Source of the DNA: a virus | Length of the DNA: 26,100 nt | Virus record (IMG/VR): IMGVR_UViG_3300035698_020401 | Coordinates: 1-26,100 of that record | Direction: 5' to 3' (one strand) | Part shown: one piece after another, positions 2 through 20,444 of the stretch | Layout: every line of letters begins with the position of its first letter | How positions within the stretch are numbered: the first letter of the stretch is position 1 | Notes under the pieces: generated by a model | Seen by the model: only the letters and a program-made list of their open reading frames with translations | Told to the model about the DNA's origin: nothing | Database searches by the model: none | Made by a program: the position numbers and the translations under genes

Positions 2-214
2 AATCCAAATGCTTTTATCTTTAAAGAAAATGGTAAAGAAATTTGTAAGGTGTCAGCAACATATGATGTAAAAGATTTACCGCCAGAAAACGTAGAAATG
101 TTTATTAGAATGATAAATAAAACCACTCAGGTTTTTCTTTGCGATACTGAAATTATTAAGCAGATAAAAAAAGAAGCTGTTAAAGAAAAAAAGAAGTGGT
201 GGAGAAAAAAATGA
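2..214 (+). CDS. C-terminal end of an unknown protein (cut by window start)
   Basis: An open frame runs in from the left edge and ends at TGA 212-214, giving about 70 residues of C-terminus. The visible part is charged. It ends in a very basic tail (a run of Lys followed by WWRKK). I do not recognise a family. The stop overlaps the ATG of the next gene as ATGA, so the two are probably translated as a coupled pair on the same plus-strand transcript. The start and most of the protein lie outside the window, so no function is proposed. Confidence 0.6.
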   Translation, partial: NPNAFIFKENGKEICKVSATYDVKDLPPENVEMFIRMINKTTQVFLCDTEIIKQIKKEAVKEKKKWWRKK

Positions 215-835: not shown

Positions 836-2074
836 ATGTCTGGGCCTATGAATTATCCGGAAGAGCAAATAGCTCTTCCAGAATTATATAAAGAATGTCC
901 TTGGCTAAAAAGGAAGAAATTTGTGAGAGTTTATAACGAAGAAAAAAGAAAATGGGAAGATGTCTTTGTAAGTGAAACAAAAGATGGAATCATGAAAAAA
1001 GAAAAAAATGGAAGTATATACGCAATGACTAATAAGACTGAAAAAGTAATAAAAGAAATGAATGAGAATAAAGAAACTAAAGCTCTAACTCCTATTACAA
1101 AACCAAACCATAAACCCTATAAATCTATAGTTAAAAAATTTCCACTTGCATATGCAGGAGAGAAGTTATTTAATGTAGAAGAGCTTAATCAATACATGAA
1201 AAAAGATTATGAGGGATATCCAGTAATTGTTACTGACAATTATGGTGGAAAGAAATTTACAATAAATTGGGATGGAACTTCAATTATATTAAAAGATGAT
1301 AATGGAATAAAAATACCTTATAAAGATCCAAAATTTTATAATCTATCAACTTTGTTCTTTAATAATTTTGTAGAAGATTTTACATTAGTGTCAGAGCGAC
1401 TTTCTGGAGTACATTTTACACTTCAATGTGAGCTATTGAAAAATGAATTTGTAAGAGATTATATCTTCTTTGAAAATAAAAAAAGTTTTGGTATTGTTGT
1501 AACTGATTTACACGTCAATACTAATTGGTTTGATTTCAAAGATATTCAAGAGATAGTAAAAGGAACAAAGTTCTTTGCTTCTCATGTAGTTTTTGAAGGA
1601 ACTTTTAAATTATCTGATATGTTAGAGATAGCAGAAAAAAGTTCAAAAATGGGAGTTGTAGTTAGGTTAAAATATGAACTTAATGATTCTACAAAAAGAA
1701 AAGTATCTTTAATATCAAAGAATAAATTTAAAAAGAATTTAATTATTGATGAAATAACTATGAAAACTAAGATTAAAAATTTCTTAATTCAAGAGTTTAA
1801 ATACAAAAGTATTTTATGGATAGATTTAATATATAAAAATAATATAATTATAAAACCATCTAATATGAAAAGTATAATGCCATTATTTGCTAAAGAAGCA
1901 ACAGATGATATAAAATTTTATTTAGCGAGTGAGTTTTATTACGTTAATAAAAAAGATGATAAATTTTCAATGAAATGGATAGAAAAAACAATGAAAAAGA
2001 TTTTGCCATTAGCAGCTTGGACTTTAATAAAAGAAGCTGATAATAAAAGAAAAAGCATCACAAAAGAGGGTTGA
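836..2074 (+). CDS. Unknown 412-aa protein
   Basis: A 412-aa protein with ATG at 836 just after GAGGAGTAAAA. It is Lys-rich, with no signal peptide, no clear membrane segment and no catalytic motif that I can see. The first 100 residues are polar and probably partly disordered. Residues about 115-410 look like a mixed alpha/beta globular region. It overlaps the start region of the first W-S-C/zinc paralog (stop TGA 2072-2074, next start GTG 2077), so the two are likely translationally coupled. I do not recognise a family. The close coupling suggests, but does not show, that it works with the downstream paralog. Confidence 0.6.
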   Translation: MSGPMNYPEEQIALPELYKECPWLKRKKFVRVYNEEKRKWEDVFVSETKDGIMKKEKNGSIYAMTNKTEKVIKEMNENKETKALTPITKPNHKPYKSIVKKFPLAYAGEKLFNVEELNQYMKKDYEGYPVIVTDNYGGKKFTINWDGTSIILKDDNGIKIPYKDPKFYNLSTLFFNNFVEDFTLVSERLSGVHFTLQCELLKNEFVRDYIFFENKKSFGIVVTDLHVNTNWFDFKDIQEIVKGTKFFASHVVFEGTFKLSDMLEIAEKSSKMGVVVRLKYELNDSTKRKVSLISKNKFKKNLIIDEITMKTKIKNFLIQEFKYKSILWIDLIYKNNIIIKPSNMKSIMPLFAKEATDDIKFYLASEFYYVNKKDDKFSMKWIEKTMKKILPLAAWTLIKEADNKRKSITKEG

Positions 2075-2076
2075 TT

Positions 2077-4248
2077 GTGTACGAAAAAACATTTGAATTA
2101 ATTAAGAAACATTTTTCTCTAACAGAAGATAGCTTAGAATATCTTAAGGATCGTCTTGACAATCCTTTTGTAGATGAAGTTTATGAAAAAGCTGGAGTAA
2201 ATGTTGATAATGAATATCGTTTGATTATACCATTAAGTAGGGAAGATCTGTCTGGAAAAGATATTGGGTTTCAAATGTTTAATAAATTCTTTAAAGATTT
2301 TGCTAACGTTAGCGAAATTACATATGATGCTTTTGTATCTAATATGTTTTTTGATGGAAAGAATAATATCAAAATACAAAAAGCAATGAAGAATTATTAC
2401 CTCAACAATATTTCAAAGATAGAAACATTTATGGATTCTGATTTTGCTGATAGGTATCAATATACATTAAAAAAGATCAGAATATTAAAAAGAAAAATCG
2501 AAAAAGAAAGCGAAACAGAAAAAACTAAAAAAACTAAAGAAGTTAAAAAAACTAAAGAAGCTAAAGAAGCTAAAGAAGTTAAAGAAGTTGATAAGCTTGT
2601 TGAAGATGCAGTTAAAATTGGTGGAGTTAGAGATGCTTTTATAAGAGCAGGAGCTACTATACCTCCTACTAATATATATAGCGGTGTTTCCATATCTAAT
2701 TTGAGAAATTGTTTCTATAGTAATAATAATGATGATGATGATGATAATTTAATTACTATTTCTACATTAGGAGAAGAAGAAAGTAAAAATTCTAATAATG
2801 ATTATTTACATAAATTACTTTTGTTAGAGCATGAAATTAAATCTTATGTTAATACAATGAATTCATATTTATTAGATACATATAATGAATGTTGTAATAA
2901 GAAATTTAATTCAGATTTTTTAAAGAATCCAAATTTAGTAATTTCATTAAATTGTGATGATTTTATGATGTCAGCAACAGGTGAATCTTGGAGTTCTTGT
3001 ATCAATTTAAACACTGAATATAGTGGATGTTTTTGGAGTGGCTTGCCAGGATTATTGATGGATAAGAATAGAGCATTGATATATTTATCCGACATGAGAG
3101 AAAAAAAATTACATGGAATGAAATCTTATAGAATGTTCTCTAGATCTTGGGCATTGATTGATAATGAAGATGAATTTAATGTATTAAGATTCTTTCCAGA
3201 AGAACAAGATGCTAACATTGTTAAAGATAATTTTCCTTCTCCTGTTAATATAGTTTTTAATCCATATAATAACAGAAGAAGTATAAAAAATAAAAATTTT
3301 AACCTAAAGATAAATGAACATTTAGTATCAAAACATTTAGTAAAATTGTTATACTTTACTAACGATAAGAGTTGTTTTATCTACCAAGATCACACACTCT
3401 TTGATTCAGAAAGAAAAATAAGGTATAAAGATTCAAACAGAATTAGTAAAATAGGAATAAGAGGAGCAGTAAATAACGGTTGTTATGCTTATTTTAAAAA
3501 TGGAGAATATATTCAAAATACAATATTTGATTATACTTATGGACTTACTGGTTTAGTAAAAAATAATAAAAGTCTTGATCTTTATTATAGAGAAAGACAA
3601 CAAAGATGTGATGAAGAAGAAGAACAATATTGTTATCATTGTGAAGAAGAGATAGATGAAGATGATAAAATATATTGTAATATTACTGGTGAATATTATT
3701 GTGAAAATTGTTATAATGAACTTTTCTTTAACTGCGAGCTTTGTGGAGAAACTCATAATAGAAGAGATAGAAACTTTAAATATTTTGTTGAATATTACGG
3801 AGGATCAAAAAGAACTTTTCTTTGTAACGACTGTGTAGAAAATGACAATAGAATAACTAAATGTAATGATTGCGGAATAATTATAGATTATAACGTAGAT
3901 AAAAATGATAAAAGTTTATCCAGAATGACTATGAGTAGATTTCATGGAGGAAAAGCGTTATTAACATATTTAAAAAGAAAAAATGTGGAGCATACTGAAG
4001 CAGAAATAGAAGAAGGTAAAGCATTGAATCTTTGTTTTTCTTGTTTAACAAAACATAAAGAGAATAATGAAAAAGTAGAAGAAAAAGTAGAAGAAAAAGT
4101 AGAAGAAAAAGTAGAAGAAAAAGTAGAAGAAGTAGAAGAAGTCAAGATTACACTTGACAATTTAGACATAGTTAATGAAGTAATCAATTATGAAGCCAGA
4201 AGAAGACTTAATGAAAATTTGAGCAATCTTGGCTATTATAGTGAATAA
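2077..4248 (+). CDS. W-S-S-C core / zinc-cluster protein, paralog 1 (largest)
   Basis: A 723-aa protein. GTG at 2077 is chosen over TTG at 2071 because GAGGG (2066-2070) then sits 6 nt upstream. The N-terminal domain (to about residue 110) resembles those of the 6136 and 7707 genes (K-K-x-F-x-L-x-x-x-S-L pattern). Next comes a low-complexity linker (about 145-260) with K/E/T repeats and a run of five Asp. The core carries ESWSSCINL with W305 and C308, followed by WSGLPGL and DKNRALIY, all shared with the paralogs. Residues 519-656 hold six CxxC pairs (CYHC, CENC, CELC, CNDC, CNDC, CFSC), probably structural zinc sites. A KVEE repeat follows near the C-terminus. I do not recognise the core family. 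The conserved W-x-S-C could be structural or a Cys nucleophile; the sequence alone does not decide. Confidence 0.7.
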   Translation: MYEKTFELIKKHFSLTEDSLEYLKDRLDNPFVDEVYEKAGVNVDNEYRLIIPLSREDLSGKDIGFQMFNKFFKDFANVSEITYDAFVSNMFFDGKNNIKIQKAMKNYYLNNISKIETFMDSDFADRYQYTLKKIRILKRKIEKESETEKTKKTKEVKKTKEAKEAKEVKEVDKLVEDAVKIGGVRDAFIRAGATIPPTNIYSGVSISNLRNCFYSNNNDDDDDNLITISTLGEEESKNSNNDYLHKLLLLEHEIKSYVNTMNSYLLDTYNECCNKKFNSDFLKNPNLVISLNCDDFMMSATGESWSSCINLNTEYSGCFWSGLPGLLMDKNRALIYLSDMREKKLHGMKSYRMFSRSWALIDNEDEFNVLRFFPEEQDANIVKDNFPSPVNIVFNPYNNRRSIKNKNFNLKINEHLVSKHLVKLLYFTNDKSCFIYQDHTLFDSERKIRYKDSNRISKIGIRGAVNNGCYAYFKNGEYIQNTIFDYTYGLTGLVKNNKSLDLYYRERQQRCDEEEEQYCYHCEEEIDEDDKIYCNITGEYYCENCYNELFFNCELCGETHNRRDRNFKYFVEYYGGSKRTFLCNDCVENDNRITKCNDCGIIIDYNVDKNDKSLSRMTMSRFHGGKALLTYLKRKNVEHTEAEIEEGKALNLCFSCLTKHKENNEKVEEKVEEKVEEKVEEKVEEVEEVKITLDNLDIVNEVINYEARRRLNENLSNLGYYSE
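4072..4140 (+). repeat. 12-bp in-gene tandem repeat (KVEE units)
   Basis: Five perfect copies of AAAGTAGAAGAA (4072-4131) encode Lys-Val-Glu-Glu, followed by a partial GTAGAAGAA. The repeat is in frame in the C-terminal part of the zinc-cluster protein and is likely to vary in copy number by slippage. Confidence 0.9.
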
Positions 4249-4261
4249 AAGGGATATAAAA

Positions 4262-5332
4262 ATGAACAAAGAAATGAACGAAAAATTGATGCTAGAAATT
4301 TTTAGAATACCTTCTTTAAGTTATAAAGAAGACGCAATGCGTAAGTATATTGAAAATTTTTTAGTAGATAATAAAATTGAATATTTAAAAGATTTTACAG
4401 GAAATCTTTACAATGTTTCTTATAAAGATGAACCTATGTTATGTGCGCATATGGATACAGTTCAAGATGATGACGATGCTTCTCTAGCACATTTCATAGA
4501 TATTAAGGGATATTATATAAGTGGATACGGAATTATTGGAGGAGATGATAAATGTGGTATCTATATAATACTAAAAGCTCTACTCGAAAAGAAAAATCTT
4601 AACTTCTTATTTACTGTAGAAGAAGAAGTTGGAGATGGAGGATCATCTGATTTTGTTAGAGTTAAAGAAAATCAAGATAGACTTAGAGACGTTCTGTATT
4701 GTTTAGTATTAGATAGAAAAGGAAATGGTGACATCTTATGCCAACAAAATAACTATGGAACTAGCGAGTTTGAAGTTTACTTAGAAGAAGTTGGAAAACT
4801 ATATGGATATAGTCCAGCAATGGGAACTTTTTGTGATGCTGATAAGATTAGAGATTATACAAGTTGTGCAAATTTAAGTGTTGGATATTATAATCCTCAT
4901 ACAAAAAAAGAATATGTAGACGTAAGAGATCTTGAGATATCCTACAAATTTGTAATGGCTTGCTTAACAAAAATTATAGTAAAGTTTAAACCATCACAAG
5001 CTAAACATTATGACGCATATGGAAGTTATAGAAATTATGGTGGTTATGGTGGTTACGATGATGATTATGAAGATGAGTATTCTGAATATGATAGCTACTA
5101 TAAAGACAAGAAATATTGTCCAGTATGTGGAGCTACTTGTTCTACAAAATATTTTTCAAAAAAGTTGAATAAATATTTCTGTAAGGATTGTTTATCAGTA
5201 CTTTTAGAAGAGCTTCTTGAACTAGAAGCAGAAGTATTAAGATCTGATTCTTTAAATCTTAAACACGAAGAAGATGATATTGATGTAGATTTTGAAATAG
5301 ATGCACTAGAATTAGAGTTGAAAAGTAAATGA
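4262..5332 (+). CDS. M20/M42-type zinc metallopeptidase with C-terminal zinc ribbon
   Basis: A 356-aa protein. ATG 4262 is preferred over an upstream in-frame TTG because AAAAGGGATA precedes it. The pattern of dinuclear zinc peptidases of the M20/M42 clan is visible: AHMDT (H63, D65), GGDDKCG (D95), the VEEEVGDGG segment (E120-E122), LDRKG (D151) and NPHTKKEY (H213). Such enzymes act as aminopeptidases or di/tripeptidases on short peptides. The domain ends near residue 245 without an obvious long lid insertion. A Tyr/Gly/Asp-rich linker (250-281) and a zinc ribbon (C286-x2-C289, C307-x2-C310) follow, then an acidic tail. The ribbon is unusual for the family and echoes the zinc clusters of its neighbours. 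The stop overlaps the next small gene (ATGATGG). Peptidase assignment is firm at clan level; the substrate is unknown. Confidence 0.82.
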   Translation: MNKEMNEKLMLEIFRIPSLSYKEDAMRKYIENFLVDNKIEYLKDFTGNLYNVSYKDEPMLCAHMDTVQDDDDASLAHFIDIKGYYISGYGIIGGDDKCGIYIILKALLEKKNLNFLFTVEEEVGDGGSSDFVRVKENQDRLRDVLYCLVLDRKGNGDILCQQNNYGTSEFEVYLEEVGKLYGYSPAMGTFCDADKIRDYTSCANLSVGYYNPHTKKEYVDVRDLEISYKFVMACLTKIIVKFKPSQAKHYDAYGSYRNYGGYGGYDDDYEDEYSEYDSYYKDKKYCPVCGATCSTKYFSKKLNKYFCKDCLSVLLEELLELEAEVLRSDSLNLKHEEDDIDVDFEIDALELELKSK

Positions 5333-5469
5333 TGGCTCTTAAAATATTAAGTATAACAGCCATTGTGACTGTAGCTCTGATAATATCAGGGTTATATCCA
5401 CCTGTAGCTGTTATGCTTACAGCATTAGGTATTACATTTTTATTTTTATTATTTAAAGATGTTAGTTAA
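5329..5469 (+). CDS. Two-helix membrane mini-protein
   Basis: A 46-aa ORF starting ATG-ATG at 5329 and overlapping the peptidase stop (TGA 5330-5332), ending at TAA 5467-5469. It has two hydrophobic stretches, roughly residues 5-22 and 25-42, separated by a YPP turn, with LFKDVS at the C-terminus. This predicts a hairpin membrane protein. Overlap with the peptidase suggests coupled translation. Small phage two-helix proteins include holins and accessory membrane proteins, but no lysin gene is nearby, so I do not assign a role. Confidence 0.6.
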   Translation: MMALKILSITAIVTVALIISGLYPPVAVMLTALGITFLFLLFKDVS

Positions 5470-5510
5470 AATATATCATATATATTGTAAAAAGAAATAG
5501 GAGAATAAAA

Positions 5511-5804
5511 ATGTATGTAGAAAAATTAATTGAAGAAACAGAAAAATTACTTGATAACATTTCATTTATGAAACTTGTGAAGCTTTGGAATAGTACTTTC
5601 CCTGAAGAATTTGTTAATGAGGATGTTGCAAAGAAACCTTATGCTACAGAAGTTTTAGAAGAATTAAGAAGTATACTTATTGATAATATTCAAGATATAG
5701 ATCTTGAAAAATTAATATTTATTCATAATGAAATATCAGAAGATGAAGTATTAGAAGAGAATATACAGGAAGATCTTGATATAGATGAGGATTTATTAGA
5801 TTAA
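5511..5804 (+). CDS. Small acidic unknown protein
   Basis: A 97-aa protein with ATG 5511 after AATAGGAGAATAAAA. It is predicted largely helical and very acidic at the C-terminus (from about residue 75, dominated by Glu and Asp). It contains LVKLWNSTFPEEF and a run of Leu/Ile-Asp-Glu heptad-like segments. No family is recognised and there are no catalytic motifs. The upstream spacer (5470-5510) contains an AT-rich stretch (CATATATATTGTAAAA) resembling one before the HNH gene, possibly a weak promoter. Small acidic phage proteins often mimic DNA or bind host polymerase, but there is no specific support here. Confidence 0.6.
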   Translation: MYVEKLIEETEKLLDNISFMKLVKLWNSTFPEEFVNEDVAKKPYATEVLEELRSILIDNIQDIDLEKLIFIHNEISEDEVLEENIQEDLDIDEDLLD

Positions 5805-5812
5805 CAAGTAAA

Positions 5813-5846
5813 GTTAATTACAAATAAGAATTAAGGAGTAATTAAC
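5813..5846 (+). promoter_or_regulatory. Inverted repeat framing a ribosome-binding site
   Basis: GTTAATTAC (5813-5821) and its perfect complement GTAATTAAC (5838-5846) are separated by 16 nt. The AGGAG ribosome-binding site (5834-5838) lies at the loop/right-arm border, and the right arm ends immediately before the ATG at 5847. The RNA hairpin could limit ribosome access or be a protein operator. The all-AT core makes it marginally stable, so temperature or protein binding could matter. Confidence 0.5.
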
Positions 5847-6062
5847 ATGTCTGTTGAAATAGATGTTTCTCAAACTAACATAAAAAAAGAAGGTAGTGAT
5901 TTAATAATTAAAGGAGAAAAGGCAGTTAAGTCTGGCAATACAATTTCTTTTGATGTATTAAAAAATCCTAAAAGTGAGTCTGGCATAGGACTTGATGCTA
6001 TTGATGAAGTTAAAAGTGGAAAAACAATTACCACATTAGTAATTGAAAGTGGCAAAGAGTAA
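5847..6062 (+). CDS. Small beta-rich unknown protein
   Basis: A 71-aa protein with ATG 5847 and AAGGAG upstream inside a hairpin. The sequence alternates polar and aliphatic residues with several Gly turns (for example DLIIKGEKAV, GKTITTLVIE) and looks like a small all-beta domain. There is no Cys, signal peptide or membrane segment. No family is recognised. It is the last gene before the promoter at 6076-6104. The hairpin over its start suggests translational control separate from its upstream neighbour. Confidence 0.55.
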   Translation: MSVEIDVSQTNIKKEGSDLIIKGEKAVKSGNTISFDVLKNPKSESGIGLDAIDEVKSGKTITTLVIESGKE

Positions 6063-6075
6063 TAATAAAAAATAA

Positions 6076-6104
6076 TTGAAAAAAAAATAAAAAAATGTTA
6101 TAAT
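6076..6104 (+). promoter_or_regulatory. Sigma70-type promoter with extended -10
   Basis: TTGAAA at 6076-6081, a 17-bp spacer, TATAAT at 6099-6104 with TG upstream (TGTTATAAT). The leader TATAGAGAAAAAGGGGAGAC closely matches the one after the 453-481 promoter. It drives the two tandem paralogs at 6136 and 7707. Confidence 0.75.
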
Positions 6105-6135
6105 AGAATATAGAGAAAAAGGGGAGACAATAAAA

Positions 6136-7677
6136 ATGAATTCTATTAAAGCTCAAGATTTAAAAAACAAATTTCTTATATACGATATGGTTAAAAAGTA
6201 TTATAACTTCAATAAAAAGAGTTTAAGATTATTTAAGTATAGACTCTTTTATGAACCGCACTTTAATGATATGTATAAATCTCTCGGTGAATTTGATGAA
6301 ACTGGAAGACTTAGGCTATCTGTTGATGGTAAAAATGGAGAATTTATCGATAAAGGTTGGAAATACATTAAAGAGAATTTTAATAATACCATTATAGATC
6401 TTGGTATTACTTATGCTGATTTTATTGATAATAAAGTTACTGTTAACAAGCAAAGAGTAAAATTACAAAAAGCTATTATAAATCATATTCTTAAAAAAAC
6501 ACTTACTAGTGAATATAATTACGTATCAAAAGGAACAAGCAGTGGACGCATAGAAAATTATGTTAGAAGGCATTTTGAAAAAGCGGCTACATTAGTTATC
6601 AGTAAGAAAATTAAAGAAGTAGTAATCTCTTTAAACTTTGCTGATTGGTTTTTATGCTCTACAAAAGAAAATTGGACTTCTTGTTTGAGCTTAGAATCTG
6701 ATTATGAAATTGGTCATTGGTCTGGTCTTCCTGGCTTAATTGGTGACAAAAATAGAGCAATGATTTATACTACCAATGGAGATAATAAAAACTATAAAGG
6801 AATCATAACAGATAAATTTATAGTAAGAAGTTGGATGCTTACTTGCAGGTCAAAAGATGATCAAGTAATAAGAGATAATTATTATAGTGGTAATTATGAA
6901 TATGGATCTAAACCAGAAGTAAAAGTAATAAAGAATGAACCATTTCTTAAAATTGTTAACGAATATCCTACTGAAATAGGAATTAGCGATATGTTAAACA
7001 AACTATTGCCAGAAAGTAAGCATAAAATTTTTGGAACGAGATCAAATGTTTCTTTTAAATCTAGATACTATGGAGAAAATTTATTTCATAATATCCAAGG
7101 AAGAGAAATTACAAGTGGAATCTATCAAGATAGATACTATGCAGCACTAGCTAAAAAGAATAAAGGTCAAATGTTTCCTGGTGAATATTACTATCTTAAG
7201 AGTGGAGGATGCGGAACAAGTTTTTTCACAAAGGAAGGAAGAAGTGACAGTGGGTATGATTTCTATTTTGGTGATAGCGAAGGGCTAACAACAATTATTG
7301 ATGAACATAAAACTTTAGAAAGTTTCTTAGAAGATAATCGAGATGATTATACAACATGTTACAATTGTGGAGATCATTGTGATGAAGATGATATGATCCA
7401 ATCAAGTACAGATGGTGAATATTATTGTGACTATTGCTATAACGAAAAATTTTATAGCTGTGACAAATGTGGCGAAACTGTTGAAAAAGAAGATACGATA
7501 TGTATATATGATATTAATGAATATGTATGCACGAACTGTTCAGATAAATATTACTATGAATGTGAAGAGTGTCATAAACATTTTTCAGAAGTAAATATTG
7601 ATGATGATGGAGATTATCTTTGTGAAGATTGTAAAAAGAAAATTGTAATAGAAGAAGATGATAAAAAGTTAGCTTAA
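6136..7677 (+). CDS. W-T-S-C core / zinc-cluster protein, paralog 2
   Basis: A 513-aa protein with ATG 6136 after GGGGAGAC. The N-terminal domain (about 1-115) shares KPH/EPHFNDMYKSLGEFDETG with paralog 3. The core around residues 160-235 reads VISLNFADWFLCST, then ENWTSCLSL with W180 and C183, WSGLPGLIGDKNRAMIY and a SWML segment. Residues 408 to about 503 hold six CxxC pairs (CYNC, CDYC, CDKC, CTNC, CEEC, CEDC), spaced like tandem treble-clef or LIM-type zinc modules. It is co-transcribed with paralog 3, 29 bp downstream, and both derive from a recent duplication: 49 of 50 bases match between 6256-6305 and 7821-7870. The activity of the core is unknown. The C-terminal zinc array suggests binding to nucleic acid or protein. 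Confidence 0.72.
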   Translation: MNSIKAQDLKNKFLIYDMVKKYYNFNKKSLRLFKYRLFYEPHFNDMYKSLGEFDETGRLRLSVDGKNGEFIDKGWKYIKENFNNTIIDLGITYADFIDNKVTVNKQRVKLQKAIINHILKKTLTSEYNYVSKGTSSGRIENYVRRHFEKAATLVISKKIKEVVISLNFADWFLCSTKENWTSCLSLESDYEIGHWSGLPGLIGDKNRAMIYTTNGDNKNYKGIITDKFIVRSWMLTCRSKDDQVIRDNYYSGNYEYGSKPEVKVIKNEPFLKIVNEYPTEIGISDMLNKLLPESKHKIFGTRSNVSFKSRYYGENLFHNIQGREITSGIYQDRYYAALAKKNKGQMFPGEYYYLKSGGCGTSFFTKEGRSDSGYDFYFGDSEGLTTIIDEHKTLESFLEDNRDDYTTCYNCGDHCDEDDMIQSSTDGEYYCDYCYNEKFYSCDKCGETVEKEDTICIYDINEYVCTNCSDKYYYECEECHKHFSEVNIDDDGDYLCEDCKKKIVIEEDDKKLA

Positions 7678-7706
7678 TTGATAATAAAATTATAAGGTGT
7701 AGGTGA

Positions 7707-9215
7707 ATGGTGAATATTCAAGAAACTAAAAATAAGCTTTTAATTCGTAGTATGGTTAAAAAATATTTTAATTTAAGTAAAGACAGTTTTAAGTTGTTTG
7801 AAGATAGATTGCTCTTCAAACCGCACTTTAATGATATGTATAAATCTCTTGGTGAATTTGATGAAACTGGGAGAATGTATATTCCGATTAATGAAGAATA
7901 TTATGAAATGTTTGACAGTGGATATTTAGGAATAAAAAATAATTTAAAATTTGCTGTTACAGAGTTAGGAGTAAATTATCAAAACTACATTAATAACTCA
8001 ATAATTATTGATAAACAAAAAGTAAAGTTGCAAAAAGCAATCTATAATTATATTGTCAAAGAATCTAATAATAGAAATAGTCATTATTACGGATATGCAG
8101 ATACAACTCGAGATAAATTTGATGCAAAGCAAAAAATTAAGAATATTTTTGAAAAAGCTGCAGAAAGTTCTTTAAGTAAAAATAAAAAACTCTTTATAGT
8201 AATCTCTTTAAATTTTGCTGATTGGTTTCTATGTTCTACAAGAGAAAGTTGGACTTCTTGTTTGAGCCTTGAAAGTTCTTATTCAGATTTATATTGGTCT
8301 GGACTTCCTGGTTTAATTGGTGACAAGAATAGAACAATGGTATATATAACAGATAAAACAAAAAAGAATTATAAAGGGATCATAACAGATAAATTTATAG
8401 CAAGAAGTTGGATGCTAAGTATGCGTTCTGAAAAGAATTATGCTAATAATAATAACAAAATAAAAACTGCTATTGTGAAGAATGAAAAAATTTTTGCTGT
8501 AATTAAATCTTATCCATTAAGAATTGATTTTCCAAAAATACTCAATACACTAATAGATACAAAGTTTCAATTCGTTCAATCTAATGATATATCTGGTTCA
8601 ACATCAAGATTTAACGATAATGAACCATTTATAATTTCAGCTTATAAATCAGAAATGTTATTTCATCATCTTTCTGATGATATTACTGCTTATGTTTATC
8701 AAGATGGATATTCATTAAATCCATTAGAAGAAAATTGTGATTTTTATAGAGAAAAGATAGAAGATTATTACTATGTAAATAGAATAATTAAAAAAAATTA
8801 TAATAAGTATAAAGAAGATGATAGAGATTTATTCAATTTACATGATGATAGAAATAGTCATAAAAATCTTAATGGATTATCCAAAATGATGGATATTAAT
8901 TATACATTAGCTCATGCTTATCGATATCGCTATAGAACTTGTTCTAGATGTAGTAATAAAATTGATACAATGAATGAAGAAGTTAATATATTAAATATAG
9001 GTCTTGGAAATAGTTGTTATTGTAAAGAATGTTATGAAATAGTATTAAATTTAGAAGCAAAAAAGATCGTAGAAAAAGAATTATTAGCTAAAAAGGAAAT
9101 ACCGACATTCAATTATAGCACTGCTAATGCTTTTGTTAATGCTAATTGGACGATATCATCTACTATAATGACTGTTAATGATGCGATAATTAGTGGTAAT
9201 TCAGCAGTTAGTTAA
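7707..9215 (+). CDS. W-T-S-C core protein with reduced zinc cluster, paralog 3
   Basis: A 502-aa protein with ATG 7707 (or GTG 7710) after AAGGTGTAGGTGA. It shares the N-terminal domain and core of paralog 2: FADWFLCSTRESWTSCLSL with W182 and C185, then WSGLPGLIGDKNRTMVY and the ITDKFIARSWML segment. The C-terminal region differs. Only two CxxC pairs remain (CSRC at 412-415 and CKEC at 439-442), enough for one zinc site. After a helical stretch the protein ends in an uncharged Asn/Ser/Thr-rich tail (about 465-502). The core is thus kept while the zinc array is lost or replaced, which suggests the core is the essential unit. The gene ends just before a bidirectional terminator. Confidence 0.72.
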   Translation: MVNIQETKNKLLIRSMVKKYFNLSKDSFKLFEDRLLFKPHFNDMYKSLGEFDETGRMYIPINEEYYEMFDSGYLGIKNNLKFAVTELGVNYQNYINNSIIIDKQKVKLQKAIYNYIVKESNNRNSHYYGYADTTRDKFDAKQKIKNIFEKAAESSLSKNKKLFIVISLNFADWFLCSTRESWTSCLSLESSYSDLYWSGLPGLIGDKNRTMVYITDKTKKNYKGIITDKFIARSWMLSMRSEKNYANNNNKIKTAIVKNEKIFAVIKSYPLRIDFPKILNTLIDTKFQFVQSNDISGSTSRFNDNEPFIISAYKSEMLFHHLSDDITAYVYQDGYSLNPLEENCDFYREKIEDYYYVNRIIKKNYNKYKEDDRDLFNLHDDRNSHKNLNGLSKMMDINYTLAHAYRYRYRTCSRCSNKIDTMNEEVNILNIGLGNSCYCKECYEIVLNLEAKKIVEKELLAKKEIPTFNYSTANAFVNANWTISSTIMTVNDAIISGNSAVS

Positions 9216-14292: not shown

Positions 14293-14964
14293 ATGAAAAA
14301 ATGTAGAAGATGCGGAATAGAAAAAGAATTAACAGAATTTTATAAACATAAGCAGATGGCCGATGGGTACTTGAATATATGTAAAGAGTGTAAGAAAAAA
14401 GATGCTGATAAGCACTATGAAAATAATAAAGAAAATAAATTAATATATCAAAAAGATTATAGAGATAAAAATCCAGGAAAAGTAAAATTATCTCAAAAGA
14501 AATGTTATGAACAAAATAAAGAACATTATTTAGAGTGGGGGAAACAAAATTATCTAAATAATACAGAAAAAAGAAAACAACAATCTCATGATTATTATCA
14601 CTCTCATAAAGAACAATATGCTGATAGAATTAAAGAGAGAAGAGAAAATGGTGAATTTAAATCTATTGATGCTAACCATAGGCATAAAAGAAGGGCGAAG
14701 TGTAAAGAAACTGATATCACTAATGAATGGCTTAATGAATTAAGGGAAAGTAGTAGTATTTGTCCTTTGTGTGGAGTTGAAATGATAGATATAAATCTTC
14801 CATATCATCCACAGCAAAAACAATTAGATCACATAACTCCATTAAATGTAGGTGGAAAACATTTAATGGAGAATGTTAGATTTGTATGTGGTTTATGTAA
14901 TATATCAAGACCTAAAGATGGAAGTGATAATATCTCTAATAACTCCAATACATCAAAAAAATGA
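14293..14964 (+). CDS. HNH homing-type endonuclease
   Basis: A 223-aa protein with ATG 14293. The N-terminus carries a zinc module common in phage HNH proteins (CRRC at 4-7, CKEC at 30-33, with ELTEFYKHK between). A Lys/Tyr-rich helical middle follows. The C-terminal HNH domain shows ICPLCGVEM (C157, C160), LDHITPLNVGGKH (D179, H180), N194 and VCGLCN (C199, C202). Such enzymes nick or cut DNA at specific sites and spread their own gene. It is the only plus-strand gene inside a minus-strand virion block, and its 3' end overlaps the convergent 704-aa gene by 12 bp, which fits an insertion by homing. Confidence 0.88.
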   Translation: MKKCRRCGIEKELTEFYKHKQMADGYLNICKECKKKDADKHYENNKENKLIYQKDYRDKNPGKVKLSQKKCYEQNKEHYLEWGKQNYLNNTEKRKQQSHDYYHSHKEQYADRIKERRENGEFKSIDANHRHKRRAKCKETDITNEWLNELRESSSICPLCGVEMIDINLPYHPQQKQLDHITPLNVGGKHLMENVRFVCGLCNISRPKDGSDNISNNSNTSKK

Positions 14965-17360: not shown

Positions 17361-18863
17361 ATGAAAAACAGTGCTACTTTAAAGATTCAAAAGAAGATAG
17401 ATGAAAGTTTTAGAAACTTTACAATAGATAAAGAAAAGAAAATAAAGTTAAAAAATGCAGAAGTAAACTATAAAGAATTAGAAACAGAACTTGAAAGATT
17501 GATTAACCTAACAGAACAGGGATTAACTTTTGAGAACTTTCATTCTTTATTTATTTATGGACCAACAGGTGTTGGAAAATCGGAATTAGTAAAAGAAATA
17601 GCAGAAAGAAATAACTGTGTGTATCACAAACTTGAAATTCAAAAAATTCCAATAGAAGAATTTGAAGGATTTCCATATCTTGAAGACGATGAGACTTATA
17701 ATAAAGTAGTTAGGTTGGCACATCCTACGGTTCTTCCTCCATCTAATGATGATAAAACTTGGGTTTTACATCTTGATGAGTTCAACAAAGCTGACAGTGA
17801 TAAAATGGCGGCGGTAATGAATTTGGTATTAACTGGAGAAATTGGAGGAGCTGCTGATTATAACAAAGAAACAGGTAAATCAGAAAGATACCGTCTTCCA
17901 AAGAAAACTGTTATAGTAGGTTCAGGAAACTTTAAGACACAAGAGAATACAGAGAACTTAAATCTTGTAAATCAAATGGATATTGCCACATCAGAACGTT
18001 TTCATAGAGCAGTGCTACTTGATTATAATGCAATTAGTTGGCTTGAGAATTTTGCTAATAAACCAATTAAGTTTAATAAAGGAAACATGAATATAGAACT
18101 ATCTTCTAGGATAGCTCCAATTATTATGTATTACATAATGGATAAGATGTCAAATGATGGGAATAAGTCACCCTTTCTTATTCCAATATCATTTCGTCCA
18201 GACGAGGGAGGTGGAGAAAGAACTGCCTCTCCTCGTTCTTGGACATTAATTTCTGATAATATGCTTTTAGATGCAATTTATGAGTACAATACAACTGATC
18301 ATTCATTCTATGATAATTTATCGGAAGCTACTACTGAAAATAAAAATAGTTCATTTGAACTGTTCTTTAATGATCCAAACAATCAAATTAAATTTTTTGG
18401 TAATCAAGTTCTTGAATTTGGATTAGATGGCAATAGAATTGTAGAAGAAGTAATCTCAAGATACAAATATTTTGCAGAGAATAGATTAACTGCTGATGAT
18501 ATTTTATATAAATATAGAGAACCTGAAATAAGAGAGCGAGCTAGAGCACTTCAAGATAGACTTGGAATAGCATTATATTTATTAATAAGCTGTGGATATG
18601 CAATTAATGCAATGAATGATACAGAAGATATTAAGTTAAAATCTGTATGCGTAAGTTCTTTTATCGAAGATGCAGGTATATCAGGAGAAGATCTATCAGT
18701 ATTCGCTTATATTATAAAGAATTCAAAAAATAAAGTATCAAAAGAATATGATACTATGTTTACTTCTATATCAAAAAAGTATAGAGATATCTCTGGTGAT
18801 ATGTATTTTACTGCGAAAGAAGAGCTAATTGATATTAAAAAAAAAGGAAAAAAGGTTAGCTAA
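17361..18863 (+). CDS. MoxR-type AAA+ ATPase
   Basis: A 500-aa protein with ATG 17361 after AAAAAGGAAAAA. Walker A is GPTGVGKS (residues 67-74). Walker B is VLHLDEFNKAD with D139 and E140. A sensor-1-like Asn lies in GSGNFKT (N190), followed by ATSERFHRAVLLDY, which contains likely arginine-finger residues. The order matches AAA+ ATPases of the MoxR/dynein-related class, which remodel protein complexes together with a VWA-domain partner. The C-terminal 280 residues are helical without another motif. The next gene begins one base after its stop and encodes a VWA-like protein, which strongly supports the MoxR-VWA reading. Substrate in the infected cell is unknown. Confidence 0.82.
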   Translation: MKNSATLKIQKKIDESFRNFTIDKEKKIKLKNAEVNYKELETELERLINLTEQGLTFENFHSLFIYGPTGVGKSELVKEIAERNNCVYHKLEIQKIPIEEFEGFPYLEDDETYNKVVRLAHPTVLPPSNDDKTWVLHLDEFNKADSDKMAAVMNLVLTGEIGGAADYNKETGKSERYRLPKKTVIVGSGNFKTQENTENLNLVNQMDIATSERFHRAVLLDYNAISWLENFANKPIKFNKGNMNIELSSRIAPIIMYYIMDKMSNDGNKSPFLIPISFRPDEGGGERTASPRSWTLISDNMLLDAIYEYNTTDHSFYDNLSEATTENKNSSFELFFNDPNNQIKFFGNQVLEFGLDGNRIVEEVISRYKYFAENRLTADDILYKYREPEIRERARALQDRLGIALYLLISCGYAINAMNDTEDIKLKSVCVSSFIEDAGISGEDLSVFAYIIKNSKNKVSKEYDTMFTSISKKYRDISGDMYFTAKEELIDIKKKGKKVS

Positions 18864-20444
18864 GTGACAACTGATAGACCAGAAATAATAGGCAAGCTAG
18901 CATTATTTTTACAAAATAAAGAACCTCTAATTTATTTATTTATTGTTAATTCAGATTTTATATATGATGAAGAAGAGAAATTTTTGCCAAAGTTAAGTCC
19001 TGCTGGAGTTATGGTTAAGGATGGTAGGATAAAATTTTATTATAATGATGAGTTAGTTAAATTATCTATTGAAGAAATGTACTTTATTATAATACATGAA
19101 TCTTATCATATATTTAAGAAGCATCTTCAAAGATATAGAGATTTGTTTCAAGAAAATCCATACAGGCTTAATGTAGCAGAAGATTGTGTAATTAACTACG
19201 AGATAAGTGAATCTTTTAAAAGCTCACGAAATAATAGTACTAAAATATATCCAAAAGCACCTCCATATGGTGCTTATCTTCCTGAAGAATTTATAGAAGA
19301 GTATAAGCATACTAACATAAAAGATAAAGCAACTACAAGAATAGTTTATAATTGGTTAAAGGATAATGAAAAGAGTGAAATAGATAAGAATGATCTAATC
19401 AAAGTAGGTAGAATAATAATAGATAAAGACGGAAATACCGGAATGGTCGTTCGTAATGGAATAAAATCTGCTGATATTAATTACTCTAAAAAAGAAGAGG
19501 GTAGTACAAAAACAAATGATAGTATATCTATTTCTAAAGACGACATAATTACCGTACAAATTACAGAGAAAGATGCTGCTGACTTGGGTATTCCTGTTGA
19601 TAAAGATTTTATAGAATTAAAAACTACAGACACTCATTTAGATTATGATGAAGAAGCTTCTATAGAGCAAGAAACTCTTGTTAAGAAACTATACGAACAA
19701 GCAAAGGAGATAGCACAAAATAATTCTGATAGTTCAGCAGGAAATACTTGTGGAAATTTTTTTAAAATGATTAAAGAAATCTATAAGTCAAAGACCGACT
19801 GGAGAAAAGAAATTCATAAAAATTTGAATATATTCTATTCTAATGATGGAAGCTTAAAAACAAGAAGGCCAAGTTTTATGACATATCCTTGGAATCCCAA
19901 GAGTAGATATGGCATACTTTGTAAGCATACTATAGAAGAAATTTCAAATAAACAAAAATATATCATCATTGCTATAGATACTAGTGGAAGTATATTTTAT
20001 GATAAGAGAGAAAATGCTAGATTTTTTGGAGAGATAGAAACAATTTCTAAATGGTTAGACTTTAAAAAAGAAGGTCAAGTTCTATCGTTACAATGGGATA
20101 CAGAAATAAATGAAGGAATAAAAAAATATAACAAAGGTGATTGGAAAACATTCGAACAAAAAGGTGGAGGCGGAACTAGCCCTCATTGTATATTTGATTA
20201 TTTCACTGATGTATTTAAAGAAAAAAATAATAGATATTTTATAAATGAAAATGGAGTTAAGTTCACAACAAACAATAAAAAAGATTTACCATTTGTTATT
20301 GTATTAACTGATGGATATTTTTATAGAGATTTAAGAAAATCACAACTTGGTATTTACAAAGATAGCATGGAAAATATTTTGTTTTTTACAAGAAAGTCAG
20401 ACAGTATTCCTAAAGATATGAAAAGTATTATATACAAACAATAA
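18864..20444 (+). CDS. HExxH metallopeptidase-like plus VWA-like protein
   Basis: A 526-aa protein starting with GTG 18864, AAGG 8 nt upstream, immediately after the ATPase stop. The N-terminal domain has HESYH (H78, E79, H82) followed by NVAEDCVINYEI at 103-114, as in the putative metallopeptidase domain of the DUF2201 class, where an acidic residue after the helix is a further ligand. A charged linker (about 150-290) follows. The C-terminal VWA-like domain has a MIDAS pattern: AIDTSGS (D372, S374, S376), GGGTSP (T438) and VLTDGYF (D483). With the upstream AAA+ protein it forms a MoxR-VWA pair, in which the ATPase uses the VWA protein as substrate adaptor. The HExxH is intact, so proteolysis is possible. 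Confidence 0.82.
   Translation: MTTDRPEIIGKLALFLQNKEPLIYLFIVNSDFIYDEEEKFLPKLSPAGVMVKDGRIKFYYNDELVKLSIEEMYFIIIHESYHIFKKHLQRYRDLFQENPYRLNVAEDCVINYEISESFKSSRNNSTKIYPKAPPYGAYLPEEFIEEYKHTNIKDKATTRIVYNWLKDNEKSEIDKNDLIKVGRIIIDKDGNTGMVVRNGIKSADINYSKKEEGSTKTNDSISISKDDIITVQITEKDAADLGIPVDKDFIELKTTDTHLDYDEEASIEQETLVKKLYEQAKEIAQNNSDSSAGNTCGNFFKMIKEIYKSKTDWRKEIHKNLNIFYSNDGSLKTRRPSFMTYPWNPKSRYGILCKHTIEEISNKQKYIIIAIDTSGSIFYDKRENARFFGEIETISKWLDFKKEGQVLSLQWDTEINEGIKKYNKGDWKTFEQKGGGGTSPHCIFDYFTDVFKEKNNRYFINENGVKFTTNNKKDLPFVIVLTDGYFYRDLRKSQLGIYKDSMENILFFTRKSDSIPKDMKSIIYKQ

Follow-up and report, generated by a model that had tools for sequence, protein, structure and literature searches.

Closest described systems

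Expression of Rac (Gp28 of phiKMV/LUZ19), a GNAT protein of the phiKMV group of phages, triggers proteolysis of the alpha subunit of the host RNA polymerase, and this cleavage has been attributed to host proteases not yet identified (PMC7552054). Rac is a precedent for a phage GNAT that causes the cleavage of a host protein. By description, not by sequence, it can be likened to the proteins reported here, three SC-core paralogs encoded around a dizinc peptidase gene in the IMG/VR virus record IMGVR_UViG_3300035698_020401 (positions 1 to 26,100). This whole stretch, a linear record of 26.1 kb with 29.6% G+C that derives from a T4-like phage genome, is called the window below. Unlike the SC-core proteins, Rac can be recognised as a GNAT and its acetyl-CoA pocket has been identified, and no peptidase partner gene has been described for it. 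The second described system is that of the M20/M28/M42 metallopeptidases (phrog_4191, phrog_34186), whose metal-ligand pattern is complete in the peptidase gene of the window, which also matches Pfam M20 above the cut-off. It differs from them as a short form, matched by Pfam at residues 70-160 only and carrying CxxC pairs of its own at the C-terminus.

The proteins of the window are paralogs in a widespread, phage-specific superfamily, named SC-core in this study. The operon observed in the window is real, and what recurs across distant phage groups is the pair of SC-core and peptidase genes. Tentatively, and with somewhat less than even confidence, we read the SC-core protein as a modifying enzyme or targeting protein with a divergent GNAT fold that would act with the peptidase on host proteins.

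The three SC-core paralogs

The three genes and their motifs are as follows.

2071-4248, + strand: SC-core copy 1, 725 aa, TTG start, long low-complexity linker, 6 CxxC pairs
2989-3000, + strand: W-S-S-C motif of copy 1, residue 307
3187-3198, + strand: R-F-F-P of copy 1, at the RxY[PGST] position of the family
3382-3390, + strand: Y-Q-D of copy 1, counterpart of PYxD
3631-4044, + strand: zinc array of copy 1, 6 CxxC pairs
6136-7677, + strand: SC-core copy 2, 513 aa, 6 CxxC pairs
6673-6684, + strand: W-T-S-C motif of copy 2, residue 180
6958-6969, + strand: N-E-Y-P of copy 2, degenerate RxYP position, with P278 invariant in the alignment
7123-7131, + strand: Y-Q-D of copy 2
7357-7632, + strand: zinc array of copy 2, resembling PHD/LIM/RING zinc domains only (Foldseek)
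7707-9215, + strand: SC-core copy 3, 502 aa, 2 CxxC pairs
8250-8261, + strand: W-T-S-C motif of copy 3, residue 182
8505-8516, + strand: K-S-Y-P of copy 3, at the RxYP position
8697-8705, + strand: Y-Q-D of copy 3
8940-9032, + strand: the two remaining CxxC pairs of copy 3

A preliminary description of this DNA had placed three paralogs with a common N-terminal domain and core within 7 kb, and the open reading frames (ORFs), homology E-values and motifs bear this out. Copy 2 shares 43% identity with copy 3 (E 2.7e-83) and 29% with copy 1 (E 1.4e-24). The start previously given for copy 1 is an in-frame GTG at 2077, inside the ORF listed above. All three copies have VISLN..D, T.E.W.SC, WSGLPGL..DKNR, K...G and RSW in common, and the shared core pattern can be written as VISLN..D...(T)xExW[ST]SC[LI][SN]L...WSGLPGL..DKNR...RSW. 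The repeat-rich linker reported for the first copy was found again as a low-complexity KKTKEVKKTKEAKEAKEV linker, which is extra in this copy together with an EEKV-repeat tail.

Recounting of the CxxC pairs returned the same numbers (6, 6 and 2), but the reading of the low number in copy 3 as simple decay of that copy is not supported. The second-position copies in four related contigs (L100, L101, L102 and L103, see below) have 0, 0, 0 and 1 CxxC pairs, and most other copies have 8, so the zinc-poor paralog is a recurrent feature and not a random loss. The tree also counters the earlier reading. Copies 2 and 3 of the window form a group with the copies that hold the second position in L100, L102 and L103 (support 99/99) and for this reason look like a local duplication, while copy 1 falls outside their group on a long branch.

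A conserved operon with a dizinc peptidase

A complete M20-type peptidase gene, overlooked in the preliminary description, lies between copies 1 and 2 in the same conserved operon. The remaining genes of this region are listed with it.

836-2074, + strand: degenerate relative of RNA ligase (PF09414), aligning with the upstream genes of L100, L101, L102 and L103
4229-5332, + strand: M20/M28-type dizinc peptidase, 367 aa, own C-terminal CxxC pairs
5511-5804, + strand: small acidic ORF between the peptidase and copy 2, no family match in Pfam, PHROG or NCBIfam

The peptidase scores 34 bits against Pfam Peptidase_M20 (gathering cut-off 24.6) and matches phrog_4191 ('peptidase') at E 1.4e-42. Its ligand pattern is intact (H74xD76, D106, E132E133, D162, H224), and the metal/catalytic positions are invariant in 14 relatives.

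In the window the operon runs in the order RNA-ligase-like gene, SC copy 1, M20-type dizinc peptidase, SC copy 2, SC copy 3. Scans of IMG/VR yielded close relatives in five further contigs. Four of these (L100, L101, L102 and L103) have the order upstream gene, SC copy 1, peptidase, a gap that holds small ORFs, SC copy 2, SC copy 3, and the fifth (L098) has SC, peptidase, SC. The operon is followed by a large opposite-strand gene in the window, L101, L102 and L103; in the window and L098 the sequence of the opposite-strand gene after the operon reads as a tail sheath protein. The phage of L101 carries a second peptidase and SC-core pair on the same contig (L200:3691-7003), with FTSC in place of WTSC and a clear CTPYLD motif.

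The gene at the head of the operon bears on another explanation, in which the SC-core proteins would bind or modify tRNA or other RNA together with the RNA ligase of the operon, against host RNA-cleaving defences. The upstream gene of L102 is an RNA ligase (PF09414, E 3.5e-14, above the cut-off) and that of L100 is probably one (PF09414, E 4e-5). Also in favour are an RtcB ligase 2.4 kb downstream of the SC-core gene in Cellulophaga phi40:1 (gp030, L119:8102-9505, annotated as a hedgehog/intein domain protein) and, about 4.5 kb upstream of the SC/peptidase module in L098, a DUF2828/DUF7788 protein (L098:306-1775) that we take to be TROVE-like with a VWA domain. The GNAT fold also includes transferases that use aminoacyl-tRNA. 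On the other side, the ligase motifs EKxxG, FGE and EGIIxRP, seen in the upstream genes of L100 and L102, are absent from the window copy, which has no Pfam RNA_ligase match and no recognisable catalytic-lysine motif EKxxG, and no RNA ligase was recognised in L101 or L103. The annotation of phiKMV-like phages shows no such ligase next to the pair, and the constant partner is the peptidase, not the ligase. An RNA-directed module is judged unlikely.

Relatives in other phages

The three copies gave no convincing match in Pfam, PHROG or NCBIfam and no sequence match in the PDB, in agreement with the earlier statement that the core could not be assigned to a named family. Searches by tblastn with copy 2 against 50,697 phage records, and with the zinc tail alone against phages, returned nothing. 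Among the tblastn matches obtained to Serratia and Cronobacter phages, the one in a Serratia phage was discarded, since it falls across genes for recombination endonucleases and on the wrong strand. With the core of copy 1 a weak match to Enterococcus phages was obtained (E 0.2), and this match is real because the Enterococcus proteins align with the W-S-C core family profiles with a probability of 97.9 and E 5.6e-13. Foldseek comparison of the copy 2 model with viral models gave 23 matches at E <1e-3, including proteins of phiKMV-like podoviruses. Another of the 23 is a protein of 623 residues (E 1.2e-11) that, to judge by its length, is probably the one of Enterococcus phrog_29713. Chance or low-complexity similarity is ruled out by the E-values and the repeated operon, and no relative turned up when the genomes of 84,980 bacterial and archaeal species were scanned twice with a cellular origin in mind.

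The SC-core family thus delimited reaches Enterococcus phages, jumbo phages, phiKMV-like podoviruses, and crAss-like and huge phages, with more than 100 loci in the GWTSCM branch of jumbo phages. Six PHROG families of unknown function (18912, 29713, 17056, 36649, 6980 and 13313) are the SC-core proteins of Enterococcus, jumbo, Brevibacillus and phiKMV-like phages, and none of them matches the window proteins directly. Members of 18912, 6980 and 36649 adjoin or sit near the same type of peptidase. To our knowledge these families have not previously been united into one superfamily or assigned a function, and no description of the SC-core family was found in the literature.

Most branches, the GWTSCM jumbo phages excepted, keep the peptidase next door. 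In Enterococcus phages, approached from the SC side, it is the next gene; in the phiKMV-like phages KpV48, FE11, PhiM1 and Hope it directly follows the SC gene; and in C171 it is annotated in two pieces after the SC gene and one small reverse-strand ORF. Starting from the peptidase, an SC-like gene was found nearby in three of five further phage lineages, as its immediate neighbour in LR756502 and MT840031 and at a distance of 1.7 kb in SecTim467. The SCM-type protein of a 642 kb phage led to the crAss-like Cellulophaga phi40:1, in which an annotated peptidase is again adjacent. The peptidase lies within 6 kb in 30 of 80 SCM-type loci of IMG/VR, retrieved with a query that came from peptidase-adjacent members. 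It is directly adjacent in 27, in both gene orders, a figure that does not count independent events, since L120-L138 are probably one orthologous locus. The independent lines of adjacency are the window-type operon, Enterococcus, phiKMV-like, huge-phage type, crAss-like, a gut phage and, more loosely, Brevibacillus. This recurrence in unrelated phages suggests an overlooked two-gene module for phage takeover of the host.

As a separate observation, each genome of the uncultured phages LR756501-LR756504 (636-735 kb) has 7 to 15 places matched by the SCM-type protein, a large paralog expansion.

Conserved motifs

Constant across the branches are S-C, a later [RK]x[YF][PGST] and often PYxD. The motif [RK]x[YF][PGST] was found at C+45..125 in 18 of 19 window-type proteins (6.3 expected from shuffling, as for the other counts), all five phiKMV-like proteins (0.6), 77 of 92 SCM proteins (33) and 51 of 93 jumbo-phage proteins (24); in the examples listed it lies mostly at C+53 to C+82. 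In window-type, SCM and phiKMV-type proteins a PYxD or YQD comes after it. Comparison of the SCM profile with that of W-S-C gave an alignment in register (hhalign, E 2.5e-4), where unrelated pairs without shared zinc tails give 0.59-0.83; adding model-derived secondary structure brought no gain (E 0.03 with, 0.0018 without). The phiKMV-type proteins owe their link to the W-S-C family to synteny, motifs and the Foldseek match, and the profile score does not establish it. A score between the W-S-C and peptidase profiles (E 0.017) was dismissed as a sign of kinship, as it arises from the shared zinc tails. A possible link to amidoligases was suggested by zinc tails shared in structural matches.

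The invariant W-S-C of the preliminary description survives in part: S-C is nearly invariant across the relatives, but the W varies, with FTSC in a close relative and GSCM or NSCM in wider ones. That description had also proposed an active site at W-x-S-C, as would be expected of a cysteine-nucleophile enzyme such as a protease, a transglutaminase or a thioester effector, and had raised the question of a nearby invariant His or Asp. The Cys is near-invariant and Asp170 is invariant in the W-S-C families, but no His is conserved, the SRHP of jumbo phages being SLNF in the window proteins. A conserved Cys-His dyad is therefore lacking, and a hydrolase of that type is disfavoured. No such enzyme was among the Foldseek matches listed either, and we regard this explanation as very unlikely.

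Predicted fold

The catalytic-looking domain of the SC-core proteins is tentatively read as a divergent GNAT (GCN5-type acyltransferase) fold, predicted to run strand, helix, S-C, helix, three strands, the [RK]x[YF][PGST] turn and a helix. The AlphaFold model of a distant SCM relative (pLDDT 92) was compared with the PDB by Foldseek, and all 50 listed matches were GNAT acyltransferases (best E 1.7e-3), RimI, GCN5/PCAF and AAC(3) among them. The SCM model shows the GNAT order beta-alpha-alpha-beta-beta-beta-alpha, and its RxY motif lies between strand 4 and helix 3, the site at which GNATs bind the acetyl-CoA pyrophosphate, so that RxY[GST] would take the position of the cofactor loop. In addition to this domain the SC-core proteins have an N-terminal domain, the S-C between the first two helices, and zinc tails. 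Judged from the model, a GNAT fold is moderately supported for the distant relative.

Several results weigh against a GNAT-like enzyme that works with the peptidase. The GNAT matches of the SCM relative reach a TM of only about 0.4 by target, at E ~2e-3. The AlphaFold model of copy 2 (mean pLDDT 85, pTM 0.81) retrieved no GNAT among the PDB matches listed (best E 0.35), and it is because of this that we infer the fold of the window proteins through the family. No Pfam acetyltransferase model matches any SC-core member tested, and, in further difference from GNATs, the canonical RxxGxG/A cofactor motif is mostly degenerate, its canonical loop form occurring in few members, e.g. RAYGNA in KpV48 and RIYGNG in L191. 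The comparison of phiKMV-type with W-S-C profiles is not significant alone (E 0.035-0.042). The GWTSCM jumbo phages mostly have no peptidase (29 of 32 records) and no zinc tail (0 of 97). Finally, no SC neighbour was found for four peptidase genes in one huge phage, or for the peptidases of Thermus P74-26 and Bacillus FADO.

By eye, the PcfJ family of conjugative elements (PF14284) has the same order of strand, helix, HCV/SCM, helix, strands and Q/R-x-G/Y, which would make the SC-core proteins its relatives. Profile comparison does not support this homology. The hhalign runs gave no similarity with any SC-core branch (E 0.28-0.9), the Pfam model does not match the window, and it was absent when 67 core members were scanned against Pfam; such a relationship is highly improbable. 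In pCF10 (L019:17874-19984), the PcfJ gene adjoins a gene of the AcrIIA9 family of Cas9 inhibitors.

Proposed function

If the GNAT-like reading is correct, the SC-core proteins and the M20/M28-type dizinc peptidase would form a module that acts on host proteins during infection. The window proteins would share the GNAT fold and bind an acyl donor, and the SC-core protein would bind a host protein as its target and probably acylate or otherwise mark it. The zinc array may confer specificity for the target or a partner, with different paralogs serving different targets. The peptidase would then trim or de-acylate the product, so that both proteins act on one substrate. A GNAT-like marker with zinc-based target choice and a peptidase or deacylase fits the anatomy of the proteins, their restriction to phages and the expansion of the paralogs. 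An early or host-directed role is plausible because the SC gene of phiKMV-like phages stands in a cluster just upstream of the primase gene.

The degeneracy of the cofactor motif is also what would be seen in a pseudo-enzyme, a non-catalytic scaffold, GNAT-like or other, which would use the zinc array to bind a host protein and either pass this protein to the peptidase or block it. The variation of the zinc arrays (0-9 CxxC), the lineage-specific expansion (7-15 matching places in huge phages) and the position of the SC-core gene beside the peptidase agree with such an adaptor. However, the near-invariant S-C, R, D/R-Y and PYxD in very divergent proteins look like an active or ligand site and not like a freely evolving surface. 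The substrates of M20/M28 enzymes are small or are the ends of proteins, a range ill-suited to folded targets handed over to them. The adaptor is a serious candidate, but on balance a doubtful one.

A more specific form of the marking enzyme would be a phage-encoded system of reversible tagging. In it the GNAT-like SC protein would attach an acyl group or an amino acid, with aminoacyl-tRNA as a possible donor, to host proteins selected through its zinc array, and the tag would be taken off or matured by the peptidase. We think this improbable; if true, such tagging would be present in T4-like, Enterococcus, phiKMV-like, crAss-like and huge phages, and amplified into paralog sets.

Other features of the window

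An AAA+ (MoxR-like) ATPase gene followed by one for a DUF2201 metallopeptidase/VWA protein occupies 17361-20444 (+ strand). This chaperone pair is known from jumbo phages of group 2.2 (PMC7824862). Thermus phage P74-26 (L116) has a comparable chaperone/VWA pair about 1 kb downstream of an M20-type peptidase. At 14293-14964 (+ strand), on the opposite strand between structural genes, an HNH-like ORF with zinc motifs is, from its sequence, likely a free-standing homing endonuclease.

Significance of the SC-core family

The SC-core family is carried by many tailed phages, from podoviruses of about 43 kb to huge phages of more than 600 kb, and has so far been catalogued as several families, none with an assigned function. 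Should the GNAT fold be confirmed, the SC-core family would be a new and very divergent GNAT branch with a new partnership, and not something categorically new. The union of these families, a recurrent enzyme partner and a testable fold lead to one question, namely how a protein resembling acyltransferases and a dizinc peptidase affect the host cell. Since the pair exists in small tractable phages (phiKMV-like, Cellulophaga), this question can be answered experimentally.

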